Source: Candidatus Saccharicenans sp.
GTDB taxonomy: Bacteria > Acidobacteriota > Aminicenantia > Aminicenantales > Saccharicenantaceae
NCBI GenBank assembly: GCA_017992175.1
Contig: JAGOPD010000002.1
Location: 1 to 41,546 of the forward strand
Length of the DNA: 41,546 nucleotides
Reading direction: 5' to 3'
Part shown: positions 1 to 9,566 of the stretch, piece by piece
Numbering within the stretch: position 1 is the stretch's first letter
Layout of the letters: each line of letters starts with the position of its first letter
The notes under the pieces: generated by a model
Databases searched by the model: none
What the model saw: the letters and a program-made list of their open reading frames with translations, nothing else
Told to the model about the DNA's origin: nothing
Position numbers and translations under genes: made by a program

Positions 1-177
1 GTAGAAGGCTTTTCTCAAGAGGAGATAGCCACCATGCTCAAGCTACCGGTGGGGACAGTCAAAGCCAGGATCAGCCGGGGACGAGAATATTTGAGGCGAT
101 GGCTGGAAGAAGGCCGGGAAATTAAAAACAGGGGAGAAGAGAATGAGGGTTACGGTCTGAAGTTACCTGATGATTGA
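1..177 (+). CDS. ECF-type RNA polymerase sigma factor, C-terminal part (5' end outside window)
   Basis: The frame is open from the window edge to TGA at 175-177, giving the last 58 residues. They contain a sigma region 4.2 helix-turn-helix: FSQEEIATMLKLPVGTVKAR followed by ISRGREYLRRWL. This is the DNA-binding helix pair of sigma-70 family ECF factors, which recognises the -35 element. Regions 2 and 3 lie outside the window, so the ECF subgroup cannot be assigned. The next gene starts 20 bases downstream and encodes a small one-pass membrane protein, followed by an HtrA-like protein. That is the usual layout of a sigma / anti-sigma / envelope-stress operon. The acidic tail after the HTH (about 20 residues) is unremarkable. 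Confident as a sigma region 4; the ECF call rests on the motif plus context. Confidence 0.88.
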   Translation, partial: VEGFSQEEIATMLKLPVGTVKARISRGREYLRRWLEEGREIKNRGEENEGYGLKLPDD

Positions 178-197
178 AATATAGATGGAGAGTGGAA

Positions 198-569
198 ATG
201 GAAGAAAAAAAGTATATTAGTCGGCTGCCTGTGGTCGAGGCTCCGCCTGGCTTTGAAAGCCAGGTGTTGGCCAGGGTAAGAGACCGGAAAGTCAGGGCTG
301 TCCGCCGGCGACGCTGGGAATTCGGGCTGGCTGGAGCGGCCGCCGCCGCCTTGGTCATCACAGTTTTGATTTCCCCCGGGCCGAAACGGCCAGAGTATCC
401 TGCCAGTCAGGCTCAAGTTAAAGCTGATAACTCTTCCGTTGAAACTATTGAGGTTATGGAGCCGCTTAACCTGGAAAATGAGATGAGACGGGCAACGGCT
501 GATCCTCAAACTGTGTTTATTCTCGAGAAGGTATCAGACCAGCCGCTTATTCAGCAGGTCAGGTATTGA
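198..569 (+). CDS. Small one-pass membrane protein, probable anti-sigma factor
   Basis: This 123-residue protein has a charged N-terminal half (residues 1-40, ending in an Arg-rich stretch), one hydrophobic segment at about residues 42-59 (FGLAGAAAAALVITVLIS), and a roughly 60-residue extracytoplasmic tail. The topology and position directly after the sigma gene fit an anti-sigma factor that holds the sigma factor at the inner membrane. There is no cysteine in the protein, so the zinc-binding HxxxCxxC motif of ZAS-type anti-sigma factors is absent. An in-frame TTG at 174 would extend it by eight residues. The ATG at 198 is preferred because GGAG at 187-190 lies 7 bases upstream. Its TGA (567-569) lies just before the HtrA-like gene. 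Function is inferred from context, not from a recognised domain. Confidence 0.72.
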   Translation: MEEKKYISRLPVVEAPPGFESQVLARVRDRKVRAVRRRRWEFGLAGAAAAALVITVLISPGPKRPEYPASQAQVKADNSSVETIEVMEPLNLENEMRRATADPQTVFILEKVSDQPLIQQVRY

Positions 570-589: not shown

Positions 590-2026
590 ATGAAAAACAA
601 TAAAATCATAACCAACAGCTTGAAACTGGCCGTGACTGTGTTCTGTTTGACTTCCTTTATTTTTGTCACTGAAGCCAGGTCTGATCCGGCTGACGTTCAG
701 GTCAAAGAAATCATTAAGAAAGCTTCGTCAGCAGTAGTCAGGGTGGAAGTAAGAGATGGCCTGATCCGGGTGGCTACCGGAGTGGTTATAGATAAGGATG
801 GCTATATCGCCACCACTGCTTTGATTTCTCCCCGGGAGGAGGAAGTTAGAATTATCGATCAGGAAGGTAACCAGGCTGAAGCTAATTTTCTTGGTTTTGA
901 TCCTGAGAGCCGGATCGCTTTTCTCCAGGTTAAGAACAAAAAATTAAAGGCTATCTCTATGGGCAGCAGCGCCGATTTAGCTCCGGGCAGCTGGGTTTGT
1001 GCCTTAGGAATTTCACCGGAGTCAGGCCTTCAGGTGACTCAAGGAATTGTCAGTTCGGTGAGTGGTAACAGGCTCAGGTTGAATATTGCCATTACGCCTG
1101 GCATGAGCGGTGGTCCGGTGCTGAACGATCAGGGGCAACTGGTTGGGTTGCTGCGCGGGGTCTATGCCGGTGACCGGTTGTTTTTCCCGGCTTTAAGAGG
1201 TGGGGATGCCTCTGCTGGTAATTATCCATTCGGCGGCATTGAGACTCCACCCGCCGGCCAGGGCCTGGCCATGGCCATCACCGTTGAAACTCTGAACGAC
1301 ATATTTAAGGAAATCAAGACTAAAGGAAAAGTGGAGAGGGGCTGGCTGGGAGTCTTAATTGACCAGGAAGCCCGAAACCAGGTCATCATTACTGACGTTG
1401 AAGATGACAGCCCGGCCTCCTTAGCCAAACTCCAGCCAGGCGACCAGGTAATTAAGATCAATGGCCGGGAGATCAAAGATCAAGACCACTTCATTTCTGA
1501 AATCAGGAGCCGTCACCCGGGTGAGAAATTGACTTTGACCATTAACCGGCAGGGCAAGCAGCTGGAGGTAGAAGTCAGGCTGGGCAATCTTCCAGAGGAA
1601 GAAGCCTTTCGTGAGCTGGAGCTTCGCTTCCCGGAAATTTTCCGCTCCGCTCCCCGCAACCTGCCTTTGCCTGCCTGGCCTAAGGGGCAGAGATTTGAAT
1701 TTTCCATCCAGAGTTATGGCTTTATGGGCATGTCTTTAGAACAGTTAAATCCTGAGCTGGCTAAGTATTTTGGTGTTCAGGCTGGCCAGGGCTTGCTGGT
1801 CAGCAGCCTTAGCCCGGAGAGCCCGGCCAGCCGGGCTGGACTTAAGGTCGGAGATGTTATCGTCAGTGCTGATGAAGTGAGAGTCGAAACCTTGCCGGCT
1901 CTGGCCAGAATTATGGAGCAAAAGAAAAAAGGAGACAAGCTGACTCTGGAAGTAATTAGAGACCGGAAAAAAGTGAAAATTGAAATAGAAATCCCTGACT
2001 CCATTCTCGATGAAGGGCGGGACTGA
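590..2026 (+). CDS. HtrA/DegP-like periplasmic protein with degenerate catalytic triad and two PDZ domains
   Basis: This 478-residue protein has a signal peptide (residues 1 to about 28), a trypsin-like domain (about 35-240) and two PDZ domains (about 245-330 and 365-465). HtrA proteins are envelope proteases and chaperones acting on misfolded proteins. The serine motif is present (GMSGGPV, Ser173). The histidine of the usual NNHVV motif is replaced by Ala77 (GYIATTALIS), and the aspartate of the usual TDLA motif by Arg108 (DPESRIAFL). With two of three triad residues missing, normal proteolysis is unlikely; a chaperone, PDZ-binding or sensing role is inferred. The ATG at 590 is chosen over an in-frame TTG at 566 because AGGAG at 578-582 sits 7 bases upstream and the signal peptide then begins correctly. 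It closes the sigma/anti-sigma operon. Confidence 0.9.
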   Translation: MKNNKIITNSLKLAVTVFCLTSFIFVTEARSDPADVQVKEIIKKASSAVVRVEVRDGLIRVATGVVIDKDGYIATTALISPREEEVRIIDQEGNQAEANFLGFDPESRIAFLQVKNKKLKAISMGSSADLAPGSWVCALGISPESGLQVTQGIVSSVSGNRLRLNIAITPGMSGGPVLNDQGQLVGLLRGVYAGDRLFFPALRGGDASAGNYPFGGIETPPAGQGLAMAITVETLNDIFKEIKTKGKVERGWLGVLIDQEARNQVIITDVEDDSPASLAKLQPGDQVIKINGREIKDQDHFISEIRSRHPGEKLTLTINRQGKQLEVEVRLGNLPEEEAFRELELRFPEIFRSAPRNLPLPAWPKGQRFEFSIQSYGFMGMSLEQLNPELAKYFGVQAGQGLLVSSLSPESPASRAGLKVGDVIVSADEVRVETLPALARIMEQKKKGDKLTLEVIRDRKKVKIEIEIPDSILDEGRD

Positions 2027-3458: not shown

Positions 3459-6400
3459 ATGAACAAAACTAAGTCATGGTTAACAGCAATTATTCTGATC
3501 ATTTTCTTATTAACCGGTATTTCTCTCTATGCCCAGATCATGCCTGAAGGTAAGATTACTGGACGGGTGGTTGATGATCAAGGCACGCCGCTTCCCGGCG
3601 TAACGGTCGAGGCCACCAGCCCTAAACTGGTGGGCAAAGCAGCAACTGTTACTGACAGTAACGGGACTTTCCGCTTGATGGCTCTGCCATCGGGGACTTA
3701 TGAAGTTACTTTTAACTTGCCGGGATTTAAGAAACTGGTCAGAAAGGAAATCTATCTTGAATTATCTCAGACTCTGGTCCTCAACGTGACCATGGAGCCA
3801 GCGGCCATCGAAGAAGAAGTGACCGTCGTCGGCCAGAGCCCGCTTATTGATGTCAAGAGCACAGTCAAAGGTCAGGTCATGACCAAGGAGACATTTTTGA
3901 CCCTGCCTCGTGGCCGGACTTTTGATTCTTTAATCAACGTTATGCCCGGCGTTCAGAGTGAAAGCATTGCTGGTGGTTTTTCTATGGATGGTGCCACCGG
4001 GGCTGAAAACATGTGGTATCTGGATGGAGCTGATATCACCAACCTGCATTATGGAACCAAGGCTCAAAATGTGGTTCTGGAACTGTTGGACGAAGTCAAA
4101 GTCGTAGCCTCGGGGTATAATGCTGAATTTGGTGGTTCAATGGGTGGTGTGGTGAACGTCATCACCAGGTCAGGCGGAAACACCTTCCATGGCGATATCA
4201 TGGCCTTTTATGAAAACAACAAAACCTATATGCAGGGCAAATCACGTGATTATCTGCGTCAAAATCCCTATGATGACAATCTTTATGAATATGTCAACAG
4301 CGATGACCTGTATTTTGATGGTGGCAAGAAGCGTGACCCCTATTACCGGGTAGAAGGGGTTTTCAGTCTGGGTGGTTATATTCTAAAAGACAAGCTGTGG
4401 TTCTTTGGTTCAATCAACCCCATCTATTCTCAGACAGAAGCTCTCAGGGATTTTAATGCCCGCCAGGGTCCTTTTTATCAATTTTTAAATAAGAATACCT
4501 ATTATAATGGCTCAATCAAGTTGACAGCCGCTCCGGCCAAGGGCTTGAGACTCAGCGGCAGCTTCGTTAATAATTTCTATAGGTATCGCGGAGCCATTCC
4601 TGATATTGACGGCACGGAGGACCCGACTTATCAATGGACACAGGAAGGGTTTGACTATCCGAACTGGACCGGGACTTTCACTGCTGATTATGCCGGCAGC
4701 AATAATCTCTTGATCAGCTTGAGGGCTGGCTGGCACCGGCAGAATGAAACCAATCAACAGATTAAACCGCCGGACAGCTCAACTTACTGGTTTGTCTATT
4801 CAAATAGCCGTTATGCCACTGATCCTTTTTATGTAGCCCATCCTGATCTCATTCGTTATGCTGGCTGGGATAGCTGGCCGAATTATTTTGAAACAGAGAG
4901 AAGAATCTACGAAAAGATTTCTTCCAATCTCGATGTCACTTATTATCTAAGCTGGATGGGCGAGCACGCCATTAAAGGCGGAATTCAGTACATCAGGCTT
5001 CATGAAGACGTGGCCGATATTGCTCCTCATCCCCGGGTAGCTGTTTACTGGGGCAGGACCTACAATGGCCTGGGTTATCCGGTTGGGGCCGGAGCTGATC
5101 CTACCAGTCCATATTATGGACCCTATGGTTATTATTATATTCGAAGCGGCTGGACTTCTGTCTATGGTGGCTTATGGAATATCCACAGTAATAACTGGGC
5201 CCTTTACCTGCAGGATTCCTGGACAATTGGTAATAAGTTGACTCTGAACTTCGGCTTGAGAACAGAAAGCGAATATGTTCCTTCGATGGCCACTGATCCT
5301 GAATGGTCAGACCCGAAATACCAGAAGCCCATAAAATTTAGCTTTGAGGATAAGCTGGCTCCCAGAGTGGGTCTGGTCTATGATGTTTTTGGTGACTCCA
5401 GCCTGAAGATTTTTGGCAGCTTTGGCATCTATTATGATGTCATGAAGCTCTATATGGCTGAGCTGACCTTTGGCGGTTGGAAGCATAAAAGAGATTATTA
5501 TGCCATTACCGATCCTGATTGGACCAAGATTGCAGCCAGCGGCCTGATTGATGACCGGGCGAGCCAGGAAAATGGCAATGTTTATGCCGGAACACTTGAT
5601 TTCTTACCCCCCAGCTTTGACCGGGTTGATCCTGATTTAAAACCTGTTGCCCAGAGAGAAATCTCTTTTGGAGTTGAAAAAAAGCTGATGGAAAATCTTT
5701 CTCTATCAGCCAGATTTGTTCAGAAACATCTGATCCGGACAATTGAAGATGTTGGGGCCCTGGAATGGGTAACTGACCAGGAGACTGGTGAAACAACTTT
5801 GCAGGAAATATTCTACATTACTAACCCTGGCTATGGCTACTCGCGGCCGGTAAGCGAGGGGGGAAAGTTTGCTGATGAATATTGGCGCTGCCCGAAGGCG
5901 AAGAGAGAGTATTACGCCATGAATCTTTCTTTAGAAAAAAGATTCAGCCATAACTGGCAGGGCGGAATCAATTATACTTTGAGCCGGGTAGCTGGAAATT
6001 ACTCCGGACTGGCCAGTTCGGATGAAGATGGGCGACTGGCTCCGAATGTCGAGCTCTATTATGACGACTGGTTTATGTTGTATGACCTCTATGGCAATGT
6101 TCTAAAGGGACCTCTTCCTCATGATAGAACTCATTATATTAAAGCCTATGGTTCTTATGTTTTTCCTTTTGGCCTGACCGTTGGCCTGACAGCTTATGGC
6201 CGCAGTGGTTTGCCTTTGACCTCCAGGCTGGACATGAACAACCGGTACATCTATCCTGAGAACCGTGGGGATCTTGGCCGTCTGCCTTTTACTGTCTGGG
6301 CTGATCTCTATCTTGAATATGCCTTAAGATTTGGTGGAAAGTACACCGCGGCAATTAACCTTCAGGTGAACAACTTTACCAATACCAAGACTGTTCAGAG

Positions 6401-6584
6401 CAAGGTAACTGACCTCAACCGGACTGCCATCTGGGTTGATGATGCTGACATTTTGAGCGGGGCAGCTGCTCAGAATTATAGAACCTGGGTTCAAGAAGAT
6501 GGAGACCCGCATCCGGCTTTTGGCTGGTGGTCAAGTAGATATGGTGCCTGGTCGGCCAGAGTTGGCTTCAAATTTTCGTTCTGA
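3459..6584 (+). CDS. TonB-dependent outer membrane receptor, Oar-type, with N-terminal carboxypeptidase-regulatory-like domain
   Basis: This 1041-residue protein begins with a signal peptide cleaved near LYA|Q (residue 25). A carboxypeptidase-regulatory-like beta-sandwich (about 30-112; GRVVDDQGTPLPGVTVEAT) follows, then a TonB-box-like EEEVTVVG (118-125) and a plug domain (about 126-240; YLDGADITN, YNAEFGGSMGGVVNVITRSG). The remainder is a large aromatic-rich beta-barrel ending in SARVGFKFSF, with the terminal Phe typical of BAM substrates. Such receptors import large or scarce nutrients (glycans, peptides, metal complexes) using TonB energy. The substrate cannot be read from the sequence, and no SusD-like partner lies nearby. 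AGGAG at 3445-3449 supports the ATG at 3459. It is a single-gene unit with its own promoter and terminator. Confidence 0.93.
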   Translation: MNKTKSWLTAIILIIFLLTGISLYAQIMPEGKITGRVVDDQGTPLPGVTVEATSPKLVGKAATVTDSNGTFRLMALPSGTYEVTFNLPGFKKLVRKEIYLELSQTLVLNVTMEPAAIEEEVTVVGQSPLIDVKSTVKGQVMTKETFLTLPRGRTFDSLINVMPGVQSESIAGGFSMDGATGAENMWYLDGADITNLHYGTKAQNVVLELLDEVKVVASGYNAEFGGSMGGVVNVITRSGGNTFHGDIMAFYENNKTYMQGKSRDYLRQNPYDDNLYEYVNSDDLYFDGGKKRDPYYRVEGVFSLGGYILKDKLWFFGSINPIYSQTEALRDFNARQGPFYQFLNKNTYYNGSIKLTAAPAKGLRLSGSFVNNFYRYRGAIPDIDGTEDPTYQWTQEGFDYPNWTGTFTADYAGSNNLLISLRAGWHRQNETNQQIKPPDSSTYWFVYSNSRYATDPFYVAHPDLIRYAGWDSWPNYFETERRIYEKISSNLDVTYYLSWMGEHAIKGGIQYIRLHEDVADIAPHPRVAVYWGRTYNGLGYPVGAGADPTSPYYGPYGYYYIRSGWTSVYGGLWNIHSNNWALYLQDSWTIGNKLTLNFGLRTESEYVPSMATDPEWSDPKYQKPIKFSFEDKLAPRVGLVYDVFGDSSLKIFGSFGIYYDVMKLYMAELTFGGWKHKRDYYAITDPDWTKIAASGLIDDRASQENGNVYAGTLDFLPPSFDRVDPDLKPVAQREISFGVEKKLMENLSLSARFVQKHLIRTIEDVGALEWVTDQETGETTLQEIFYITNPGYGYSRPVSEGGKFADEYWRCPKAKREYYAMNLSLEKRFSHNWQGGINYTLSRVAGNYSGLASSDEDGRLAPNVELYYDDWFMLYDLYGNVLKGPLPHDRTHYIKAYGSYVFPFGLTVGLTAYGRSGLPLTSRLDMNNRYIYPENRGDLGRLPFTVWADLYLEYALRFGGKYTAAINLQVNNFTNTKTVQSKVTDLNRTAIWVDDADILSGAAAQNYRTWVQEDGDPHPAFGWWSSRYGAWSARVGFKFSF

Positions 6585-6812: not shown

Positions 6813-9566
6813 ATGTCTAAACAATTAAAGTTATTATCTGTTCTTATGTTATGCCTTTTAGTGCTGGCTTCTCTTGGAGTTGCTCAGGAAAGAGGCTCGG
6901 TGAGAGGCCTGGTAAAAAGTGATCAAGGCCTGGCTCTGGAAAATGTGACGGTGGTCATTTCCGGTCCGGCCCTGCCGATGGGTAGAGAATATGTTACCGG
7001 GAAGGATGGCAGCTTTATCTTTCAAGCTCTCCCACCTGGAAAATATACTCTGGTTGCTACTCACCCGGAGATGATTGATTTTACAGCTGAGGTCATAGTA
7101 GCCATGGCTAAGGAGACTTTCGTCAACACCGTTATGCTCCCCTTAGGTAAAATCAAAGAAGAAGTAACAGTCGTGGCGGCAGCCCCGATCATTGATCTTA
7201 AATCAACTGAGGTCTCGTCTAACTGGGTCTCTGAAGTGGTTCAGAAACTGCCGCTCGGGCGTTCCTATTCTTCCCTTTTCCAGTTAGCTCCGGGGGTAGC
7301 TGATAACCGTGATTTCGCCCCTAACGCCGGTGGTAACAAACAGGACAATGTTTATCTCTATGACGGTTCGAACATCACCAACCCCTTTTATGGTTATCTC
7401 GGAGCTAATTTTTCTGAAATGGATATCCAGGAGGTTAACATCAAAAGGGGAGGCATCAGTGCTGAATTTGGCCGGGCGGCTGGCATGGTGACTAATGCCA
7501 TCACCAAATCGGGCTCAAACAGTGTGTCCGGGACGCTCCGTTTTATCTTTTCTCCTTCTGACTTTACCTGGGATAGCCATGATCCGAATCTGGTTACCAA
7601 ATATGATTCCTACTCGCCCTCCATCGGAATTGGAGGGCCGATCATTAAGGATAAGGTCTGGTGGTATGTCTCCGGCAATTTGCCCTATACTAGAACGACC
7701 GGGCGGATAAACAATCTGGGCCCGGTGCCTAATGCCAAGACTACCTCAACTGAATTGTTCGCTAAAATTACAGCCAATCCCTGGCGGGCTCATTTGTTTT
7801 CTGTCAGTTTTAGAAATAATGATTTTACTGAAAAAAATGCTGGTATCGGAGTCAATGATCATCCGGCGGTGGCAGTCAATGGTGACGGGCTATCCAGGAT
7901 TATCTATGCTTCCTGGGTCTGGACAATTAATCAGTCAACCATCCTCGAAGCCAAATATGATCATGTCAATGAAAACTACAAAAGTGTTCCCATAACTGAG
8001 CTGGGATATCTGCCAACTCCGTTCAACTACCTGGAACCCTGGACCATGGGTTATTTTAGAACGGCGGCCGGTTATATCGGCGGGGGAGCAACAGCCTCAG
8101 GCCAGTATGTTGGAGCGGCCTCCGAATATAATACCCAGAACTTTTTCCGCGATGAATTCAAGCTGGTTCTGACTAAATATCTGGATTTTACCGGTCATTC
8201 TCATGTGATTAAGGCTGGATTCAGTTTTGATGACGGCGGGGAATATCTTGATCGCTTAACCAATGGCTGGGGAAGTATCATCACCACGACCTATTCCAGT
8301 CAGGCAGCTTTCAGGGCTCGCTATTATTCAGACCAGCCCGCTCAGGATTCGCGCGGGCGAACTTACGGCCTCTTCTTTCAGGACAATATTACCATTGGCG
8401 AGCGCTTCACTCTTACTCTTGGCTTGTTAGCCAACCGGGACGAATTTAGCAGCAAGACTGATGAAAAACGCACCTTTTTAAAATTCAACTTTGATAAGGA
8501 ACTCCAGCCCCGCTTAGGCTTCACCTTTACACCAAGCTTGAAGGTTGGTGATAAGGTTTTTGCCAGTTTTGGACGCTATAACAATATGGATAACCGTTCT
8601 ATTGCCAGAGCGGCCTCGCCTATTCGCATTGTCCGCACCGATTCTTATATTTCCCGGGCTGATGGCAGTATTATTGCTACTATTGTTCAGGGCAATGAAA
8701 CCGGCAAGATTATTCTGCCTGATCTCAAGCCGATGTATACCGATGAATTCGTGGCTGGTTATAGCCGCCCCTTCGCCAATCACTGGAGTGTTGAAATCTG
8801 GGGCGACTATCGTTATGTCAAGCATGTTATTGAAGATTTTCCTACCCGTAACCGTGAAACAGGTCCTTCCAGTTATGTTTATGGCAACCTTGATGGCCAG
8901 TTGATGTCCTGGCAGAACCTGCCTCCTGAAATACAGGCTCTGATTCCCGAGGCTGGCTTTACCGATTTTTATGCTGGCCAGGCTAAGAGAACCTATAAGG
9001 CTGTGACCTTTGAATTAAAAAGGCAATATGCCAATCGCTGGTCATTTAACCTGTCTTATACACTGAGCCGCTTGAGTGGTAACTGGGATCTTGATTACGC
9101 AGCGGGGACGGCCTTATTTTATGCTTCATCGTATATTGAAGATGCTCCCGGACTCTATCTGAGCGACCCCAACCGTAATGGAAAATTATCTGGGGACAGG
9201 ACCCACGTTTTAAAGTTGTTTGGCACCTGGGAATTTGCCAAGAGGTTCAGTCTCGGTGGCTATTTAAGAGTCCAAAGTGGACTTCCCTGGGAAAAGCGGG
9301 GGCTTGATTATTATGGCAACTATTATGCCTATCTCGAACCGGCTGGGACCCACCGGTTAAAAACCTGGGTTAATTGTGACCTGCAGTTGACCTATGAAAT
9401 TCCTCTGGGGAAGTTCAGAGGAATGATCGAAGCCAGGATGATGAATTTGTTTAATAACCAGACTGCTCTTAGAGTTGATGTTCGCGGTGATCAGCCGAGT
9501 TACATGATGCCGACCTCTTTTGCTCCGCCCCGGACCTTTGCCCTGACGTTTTATCTGTCTTATTAA
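6813..9566 (+). CDS. TonB-dependent outer membrane receptor, Oar-type, second copy
   Basis: This 917-residue protein has a signal peptide cleaved near GVA|Q (residue 24). A carboxypeptidase-regulatory-like domain (about 28-108) comes next, then a TonB-box-like KEEVTVVA and a plug (YLYDGSNITNPFYG; AEFGRAAGMVTNAITKSGSN). A beta-barrel ends in TFALTFYLSY with terminal Tyr. It shares the architecture of the receptor encoded just upstream, but is about 125 residues shorter and clearly diverged, so it is a paralogue rather than a recent duplicate. AAGGAGG at 6801-6807 fixes the ATG at 6813. It has its own promoter and terminator, which suggests the two receptors can be regulated independently. The substrate is unknown. 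Confidence 0.93.
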   Translation: MSKQLKLLSVLMLCLLVLASLGVAQERGSVRGLVKSDQGLALENVTVVISGPALPMGREYVTGKDGSFIFQALPPGKYTLVATHPEMIDFTAEVIVAMAKETFVNTVMLPLGKIKEEVTVVAAAPIIDLKSTEVSSNWVSEVVQKLPLGRSYSSLFQLAPGVADNRDFAPNAGGNKQDNVYLYDGSNITNPFYGYLGANFSEMDIQEVNIKRGGISAEFGRAAGMVTNAITKSGSNSVSGTLRFIFSPSDFTWDSHDPNLVTKYDSYSPSIGIGGPIIKDKVWWYVSGNLPYTRTTGRINNLGPVPNAKTTSTELFAKITANPWRAHLFSVSFRNNDFTEKNAGIGVNDHPAVAVNGDGLSRIIYASWVWTINQSTILEAKYDHVNENYKSVPITELGYLPTPFNYLEPWTMGYFRTAAGYIGGGATASGQYVGAASEYNTQNFFRDEFKLVLTKYLDFTGHSHVIKAGFSFDDGGEYLDRLTNGWGSIITTTYSSQAAFRARYYSDQPAQDSRGRTYGLFFQDNITIGERFTLTLGLLANRDEFSSKTDEKRTFLKFNFDKELQPRLGFTFTPSLKVGDKVFASFGRYNNMDNRSIARAASPIRIVRTDSYISRADGSIIATIVQGNETGKIILPDLKPMYTDEFVAGYSRPFANHWSVEIWGDYRYVKHVIEDFPTRNRETGPSSYVYGNLDGQLMSWQNLPPEIQALIPEAGFTDFYAGQAKRTYKAVTFELKRQYANRWSFNLSYTLSRLSGNWDLDYAAGTALFYASSYIEDAPGLYLSDPNRNGKLSGDRTHVLKLFGTWEFAKRFSLGGYLRVQSGLPWEKRGLDYYGNYYAYLEPAGTHRLKTWVNCDLQLTYEIPLGKFRGMIEARMMNLFNNQTALRVDVRGDQPSYMMPTSFAPPRTFALTFYLSY

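Follow-up and report, generated by a model that had tools for sequence, protein, structure and literature searches.

To our knowledge, pseudoproteases have rarely been recognised in bacteria, and few of them have a known job. One proven example is MamO of magnetotactic bacteria, which descends from HtrA and promotes the active HtrA protein MamE non-catalytically (PMC4794232). MamO keeps the catalytic His and Asp, carries Thr in place of the catalytic Ser, binds a metal through two His residues and has a transporter domain (PMC4794232). In the RpoE-RseA-RseB-DegS system of E. coli and the AlgU-MucA-MucB-AlgW system of P. aeruginosa, the fate of an anti-sigma factor is under the control of PDZ domains that recognise hydrophobic C-termini (PMC11642142, PMC8545111). 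The PDZ protein of the DegS/AlgW systems is an active site-1 protease, and its ligand is the end of an outer-membrane protein (OMP) or of MucE. RseB or MucB shields the anti-sigma factor. In mycobacteria, the genes for an ECF sigma factor, its anti-sigma factor and an HtrA adjoin at the sigE/rseA-htrA-tatB locus; published work describes this HtrA as an essential serine protease, and sigE and rseA do not share a transcript (PMC10027907).

The window, which is the whole stretch of 41,546 nucleotides analysed here, runs from the first base of its contig (JAGOPD010000002.1, Candidatus Saccharicenans sp.), and its source genome is 63% complete. Near its start lies a gene for an HtrA-like protein with the following features.

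590-2026, forward strand: predicted HtrA-type pseudoprotease of 478 aa with signal peptide, trypsin-like domain, PDZ1, linker and PDZ2 (translation, Pfam, DegP/MucD alignment)
722-1324, forward strand: predicted inactive trypsin-like domain, residues 45-245, lacking any His (Pfam, His count, dN/dS)
821-823, forward strand: Leu78, in the column of the catalytic His (DegP His105; alignment)
911-913, forward strand: Arg108, in the column of the catalytic Asp (DegP Asp135; alignment)
1106-1108, forward strand: Ser173, in the column of the catalytic Ser, within GMSGGP
1325-1594, forward strand: PDZ1 with the carboxylate-binding loop KVERGWLGV, residues 247-255 (Pfam, MucD alignment)
1715-1999, forward strand: PDZ2, residues 376-470 (Pfam; aligns with the PDZ1 region of DegP)

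Pfam reports a Trypsin_2 match at residues 62-187 (E 1.3e-23) together with the two PDZ domains, and the signal peptide at the start of the protein predicts secretion. Among solved structures, DegP and MucD are the closest relatives. Domain order, a trypsin-like fold with GxSGGP, two PDZ domains and a MucD-type loop (KVERGWLGV in the window, KVSRGWLGV in MucD) are shared with DegP, DegQ and MucD of the Do family (TIGR02037). Unlike these proteins, the window protein lacks the catalytic His and Asp, and it reaches 212.3 bits against the NCBIfam Do family, under the curated cut-off of 416.2. The preliminary description, made from the same DNA, had already called it an HtrA-like protein with the Ser and without the His and Asp, and the reading frame, the family and the losses all proved real. 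It had placed the His position at Ala77, which is one column off. In the ungapped alignment with DegP and MucD, in which GYVVTNNHVV (DegP) lies against GYIATTALIS (window), Leu78 faces DegP His105, and Ala77 pairs with the Asn preceding the catalytic His. Its other assignments stand: Arg108 pairs with DegP Asp135 (DPRSDIAL vs DPESRIAF), the intact Ser173 pairs with DegP Ser210 (GNSGG vs GMSGG), and both PDZ domains are present. An AlphaFold model of the window protein and UBA6228 had a pLDDT of 37.5.

In place of a Ser-His-Asp triad the window protein thus presents Leu78, Arg108 and Ser173. The only His residues in the protein are H300 and H309, both in PDZ1; the protease domain has none, so that no His-based triad can form and no other His is at hand to enter the active site. 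The di-histidine metal site of MamO is likewise absent from this domain, and so is the triad with which a site-1 protease of the DegS/AlgW type would cut an anti-sigma factor. The gene product is almost certainly a true pseudoprotease of HtrA/Do descent, without catalytic proteolysis, and is predicted to retain the fold, the oxyanion-turn motif and both PDZ domains. It resembles MamO in being derived from HtrA and, if its role is similar, in doing non-catalytic work beside an active HtrA (PMC4794232). It differs from MamO in that His and Asp are lost and Ser is kept, the domain holds no His, and the gene lies in a sigma-factor operon.

To place these losses in a wider context, 60 related genomes were searched. 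Each gave some match, and the matches fell into two separate groups. In the order Aminicenantales, 56 orthologues, 38-92% identical to the window protein, all carry Leu in the His column and all keep the catalytic Ser, while the Asp column holds R (25), Q (13), H (11), G (4), N (2) or S (1) and never D. The 20 relatives from other lineages of the class have I, V or L in the His column and S, G, A or R in the Asp column; 13 of them keep Ser, and the remaining 7 have A, T or I in its place. The second group, in the same lineage, is a separate HtrA, 25-29% identical to the pseudo-HtrA, with an intact triad in all 11 sequences checked. In a maximum-likelihood tree these 11 cluster together with full support (100/100) and sit on a long branch. 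The His and Asp columns are replaced in 76/76 family members, as against 0/11 intact paralogues. The simplest reading of these alignments would be a single early loss that predates the diversification of the class, followed by drift of the Ser outside the order. Aminicenantales genomes without a match were all at most 84% complete. One family (f11), represented by 7 genomes, most of them nearly complete, contained no pseudo-HtrA. When 297 sampled genomes of the phylum were searched, none from outside the class was among the matches listed at E 1e-60 (four candidates scored per genome).

The closest orthologue, in UBA6228 (locus L033), is 92% identical and shows the same His and Asp losses. A sequencing error or local mutation, which had been raised as an explanation, is excluded because this protein and all other orthologues carry the same losses; a search for orthologues that retain the whole triad yielded none. 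Between the window and UBA6228, dN/dS is 0.069 in the protease domain, 0.157 in PDZ1 and 0.216 in PDZ2. Strong purifying selection acts on the dead domain, which is maintained and is not decaying. Residues conserved among the order orthologues include T75, T76, L78, R163-L-N165, G171-x-S173-G, P176 and R189-G-x-Y192. The invariance of the Ser and of the GxSGxP turn in the order (56/56) is what speaks for a protein that still cuts, either through Ser alone or through another catalytic arrangement, as the preliminary description had also considered. This reading is hardly credible: the window domain is devoid of His, a His or Lys conserved in the protease domain was sought among the orthologues and none was found, and Ser has given way to Ala, Thr or Ile in 7 of the 20 relatives. 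Since these relatives manage without Ser, the invariant residue may be kept for the oxyanion turn and not for catalysis.

Some orthologues appear to carry long N-terminal extensions (up to 140 aa). These were considered as anti-sigma fusions and rejected, as the open frame merely runs back over the partner gene. At the other end, most order orthologues (e.g., L008 1501-3144) have a C-terminal coiled-coil of about 40-95 aa after PDZ2, usually ending R-I or R/K-V, which is possibly a self-ligand for a PDZ domain. The coiled-coil is absent from the window protein and from all five species of its subclade.

The genes upstream of the pseudoprotease, one cut by the contig end, have the following features.

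1-177, forward strand: 3' part (region 4) of an ECF sigma factor gene, its 5' part lost at the contig end (Pfam Sigma70_r4_2, E 7e-9)
198-569, forward strand: small protein of 123 aa with a single transmembrane (TM) segment, predicted anti-sigma factor without zinc finger (profile match, gene position)
213-305, forward strand: RsiW-like segment (VxAPpgFExxVLxxL), presumed to lie on the cytoplasmic side (profile match)
324-371, forward strand: predicted TM segment of the small protein, GLAGAAAAALVITVLI (hydrophobic run)
555-566, forward strand: C-terminus QVRY-COOH of the small protein, of the form phi-x-Y, proposed PDZ ligand (tail conservation)

The sigma-factor operon reported earlier is confirmed, with its sigma gene truncated at base 1 of the window. 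A full-length sigma orthologue with regions 2 and 4 is found in UBA6228 (L033 4992-5594), and by its NCBIfam scores the sigma factor lies near SigW. The order of ECF sigma gene, small one-TM protein and pseudo-HtrA holds in all 55 order loci with upstream sequence, the genes overlapping or separated by short gaps, and also in 14 of the 20 loci from other lineages of the class. As in the mycobacterial sigE/rseA-htrA-tatB locus (PMC10027907), the genes for an ECF sigma factor, an anti-sigma factor and an HtrA adjoin; unlike there, the HtrA is without a triad.

The small partner protein has the attributes expected of an anti-sigma factor, namely an ECF sigma neighbour and one TM segment. No Pfam family matched it, and the NCBIfam anti-sigma model NF052375 does so weakly (E 3.8e-6, under cut-off). 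The profile of the partner family gives a short and marginal match to residues 48-78 of the RsiW anti-sigma domain (E 0.0058), in which the partner's VEAPADFTANVMAKL aligns with VkAPedFEerVlaKL. This segment and the SigW-like sigma factor recall the SigW-RsiW pair of Bacillus; unlike RsiW, the partner lacks the zinc-binding half of the domain. We know of no HtrA in the Bacillus SigW-RsiW operon. From these features we infer that the small protein inhibits the sigma factor.

The C-terminus of the partner is strongly constrained. Counted over related sequences, hence not as independent events, the last residue in the order is Y in 54/55 and F in 1/55, and position -2 is I, V or A in 52/55; positions -1, -3 and -4 are mostly polar. 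This conservation stands out, given that between genera the partners often share only 25-40% identity. The C-terminal residue of the adjacent sigma protein, unlike that of the partner, varies widely. In 14 members from other lineages the partner always ends in a hydrophobic residue (I 8, L 4, Y 1, F 1). Tyr-x-Phe ends are bound by the PDZ domain of DegS (PMC11642142), and in the PDZ1 loop of the pseudoprotease R250, G251, W252 and G254 are conserved in at least 55/56 order orthologues. As the phi-x-Y alternation and the hydrophobic end match PDZ ligands and the PDZ1 loop is intact, binding of the partner tail to a PDZ domain of the pseudoprotease is plausible. In the window, an overlap of the tail codons with the ribosome-binding site of the HtrA gene was rejected as the cause of the conservation, since that site follows the stop codon.

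OMPs end phi-x-F in these genomes, with F in both the order and the non-order groups. Mimicry of OMP ends as a class-wide rule was rejected, because OMPs end in F in both groups and the non-order partners end in I or L. Downstream in the window (3459-6584 and 6813-9566) lie two large outer-membrane receptor-like proteins that end FKFSF and YLSY; nearly all copies of this type that were examined end phi-x-F. A tRNA-Leu (CAA) gene is located at 2883-2968, between a SpoU-type methylase gene and the receptor genes.

The sigma gene is preceded by TGCAACTTTT (or TGTAACTTTC), then GGTT(T), at mostly constant spacing. Of the 19 genomes of the genus, 14 have the strict motif, each at a single site. In 13 of them this site lies at the sigma operon, and in the other (G018) it precedes the intact HtrA gene. 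The form G[CT]AAC-N17/18-GTT occurs upstream of the intact HtrA gene in 10 of 11 genomes, against an average of 0.1 and a maximum of 2 in dinucleotide shuffles and 0 on the reverse strand. This match to a consensus, a candidate promoter, points to a sigma factor that acts on its own operon as well as on the active HtrA gene. In the incomplete window genome, an intact HtrA and the promoter of the operon are both missing, and they are known from relatives. No motif was present upstream of the DegS-like, RseP and outer-membrane protein genes examined. A relaxed scan for more regulon members was mostly uninterpretable and included a recurrent TGAAACTTTT match resembling coding sequence. Upstream regions of intact HtrA genes (e.g., L068, L065) also contain TTGAATTT-N-TATG.TAATTT near the start codon, an element resembling a housekeeping promoter; with it beside the sigma-type motif, the intact HtrA may have two promoters.

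The motif shared with the intact HtrA, and co-transcription with the sigma gene, would suit a pure output, in which the sigma factor induces the pseudo-HtrA along with the intact HtrA, as a holdase or chaperone of the periplasm that has no signalling role. Inactive HtrA variants can indeed protect cells against abnormal proteins (PMC11642142). Such a role leaves unexplained the 55/55 linkage to the anti-sigma gene and the phi-x-Y end that the partner has kept, and it is considered rather improbable. The lost cutting machinery, the sigma/anti-sigma operon and the docking-type partner tail indicate that the pseudo-HtrA is probably no enzyme but a switch or sensor. Control of the anti-sigma protein by a PDZ-based sensor had been suggested beforehand; the class-wide triad loss and the strict operon linkage lend this idea support, to which the RsiW-like partner, its conserved ligand-like C-terminus and the motif common to the intact HtrA now add.

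The favoured reading is that the pseudoprotease shields the anti-sigma tail, and would gate the envelope-stress response by holding it. As long as cells are unstressed, the pseudoprotease would use a PDZ domain to bind the periplasmic tail of the partner at the C-terminal I/V-x-Y-COOH and would shield this tail, and the dead active-site groove could help to grip the anti-sigma chain. Misfolded envelope proteins, e.g., OMPs exposing phi-x-F ends, would compete for the PDZ site. An active site-1 protease would then cut the freed tail, and an RseP-type site-2 protease, of a family found in 9/9 genomes, would cut the stump left in the membrane; the released sigma factor would raise its own operon and the intact HtrA. 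Binding, shielding, competition and the order of cleavage are all steps that we infer. There is about an even chance that the ECF sigma, RsiW-like anti-sigma and pseudo-HtrA form a module that controls an envelope-stress regulon including the intact DegP-like HtrA, with the pseudoprotease shielding the anti-sigma tail. That the anti-sigma factor carries its own OMP-like PDZ ligand, locked by the dead HtrA, with damage read by competition for the PDZ site, is proposed more tentatively. Counted against the favoured shielding model are the shortness and marginal score of the RsiW match, the coiled-coil extension of most orthologues, which the window protein lacks, and the partner ends of other lineages (-TI, -QI, -PL or -TL, not phi-x-Y). 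It is also counted against this model that in 6 of the 20 relatives the pseudo-HtrA gene is not beside the sigma gene. These six loci belong to family f12 (L130, L131, L133, L139, L141 and L142).

The pseudoprotease could instead act as a positive co-factor, presenting the anti-sigma tail to an active HtrA or co-oligomerising with it, thereby promoting cleavage. MamO provides the precedent, being required for MamE-dependent proteolysis without a triad of its own (PMC4794232), and candidate active partners coexist with the pseudo-HtrA in relatives, namely intact DegP-like HtrAs and DegS-like HtrAs that have intact His and Ser motifs. The operon linkage and the C-terminal data fit this role too. 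The promoting part of MamO is, however, its C-terminal transporter domain, which the pseudo-HtrA lacks, and the pseudo-HtrA shares only 25-29% identity with the intact HtrA, so a co-factor role is regarded as unlikely. Shielding is favoured over both the co-factor and the output chaperone. The locus also differs from the DegS and AlgW systems, in that the PDZ protein is inactive here and the anti-sigma factor itself bears the ligand-like end.

A literature search, with subscription papers outside its reach, turned up no description of a module of this kind, with a pseudo-HtrA as a constant member of a sigma operon. HtrA pseudoproteases are already known from MamO; the sigma-operon setting is apparently new, as far as could be found. 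The pseudo-HtrA is fixed across nearly the whole of a class of uncultured bacteria, with sigma factor, anti-sigma factor and predicted regulon around it, and with these at hand, how a dead HtrA might regulate can be tested with a few purified proteins. If the shielding model is true, sensing and cutting, joined in DegS, would be split between a pseudoprotease sensor and a separate active protease, and the PDZ sensing step of the DegS/RseA type could be uncoupled from proteolysis. Annotation pipelines would label the pseudo-HtrA an active protease.

Directly upstream of the operon in UBA6228 (L033 3197-4789, reverse strand) lies another ECF sigma gene, which is divergent and accompanied by a zf-HC2 anti-sigma gene. 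This divergent module also includes a LiaI/LiaF-like TM protein and a DUF4097 protein, so that two ECF modules stand back to back. A GGAACTTTT-like motif faces the divergent module in several genomes of the genus.
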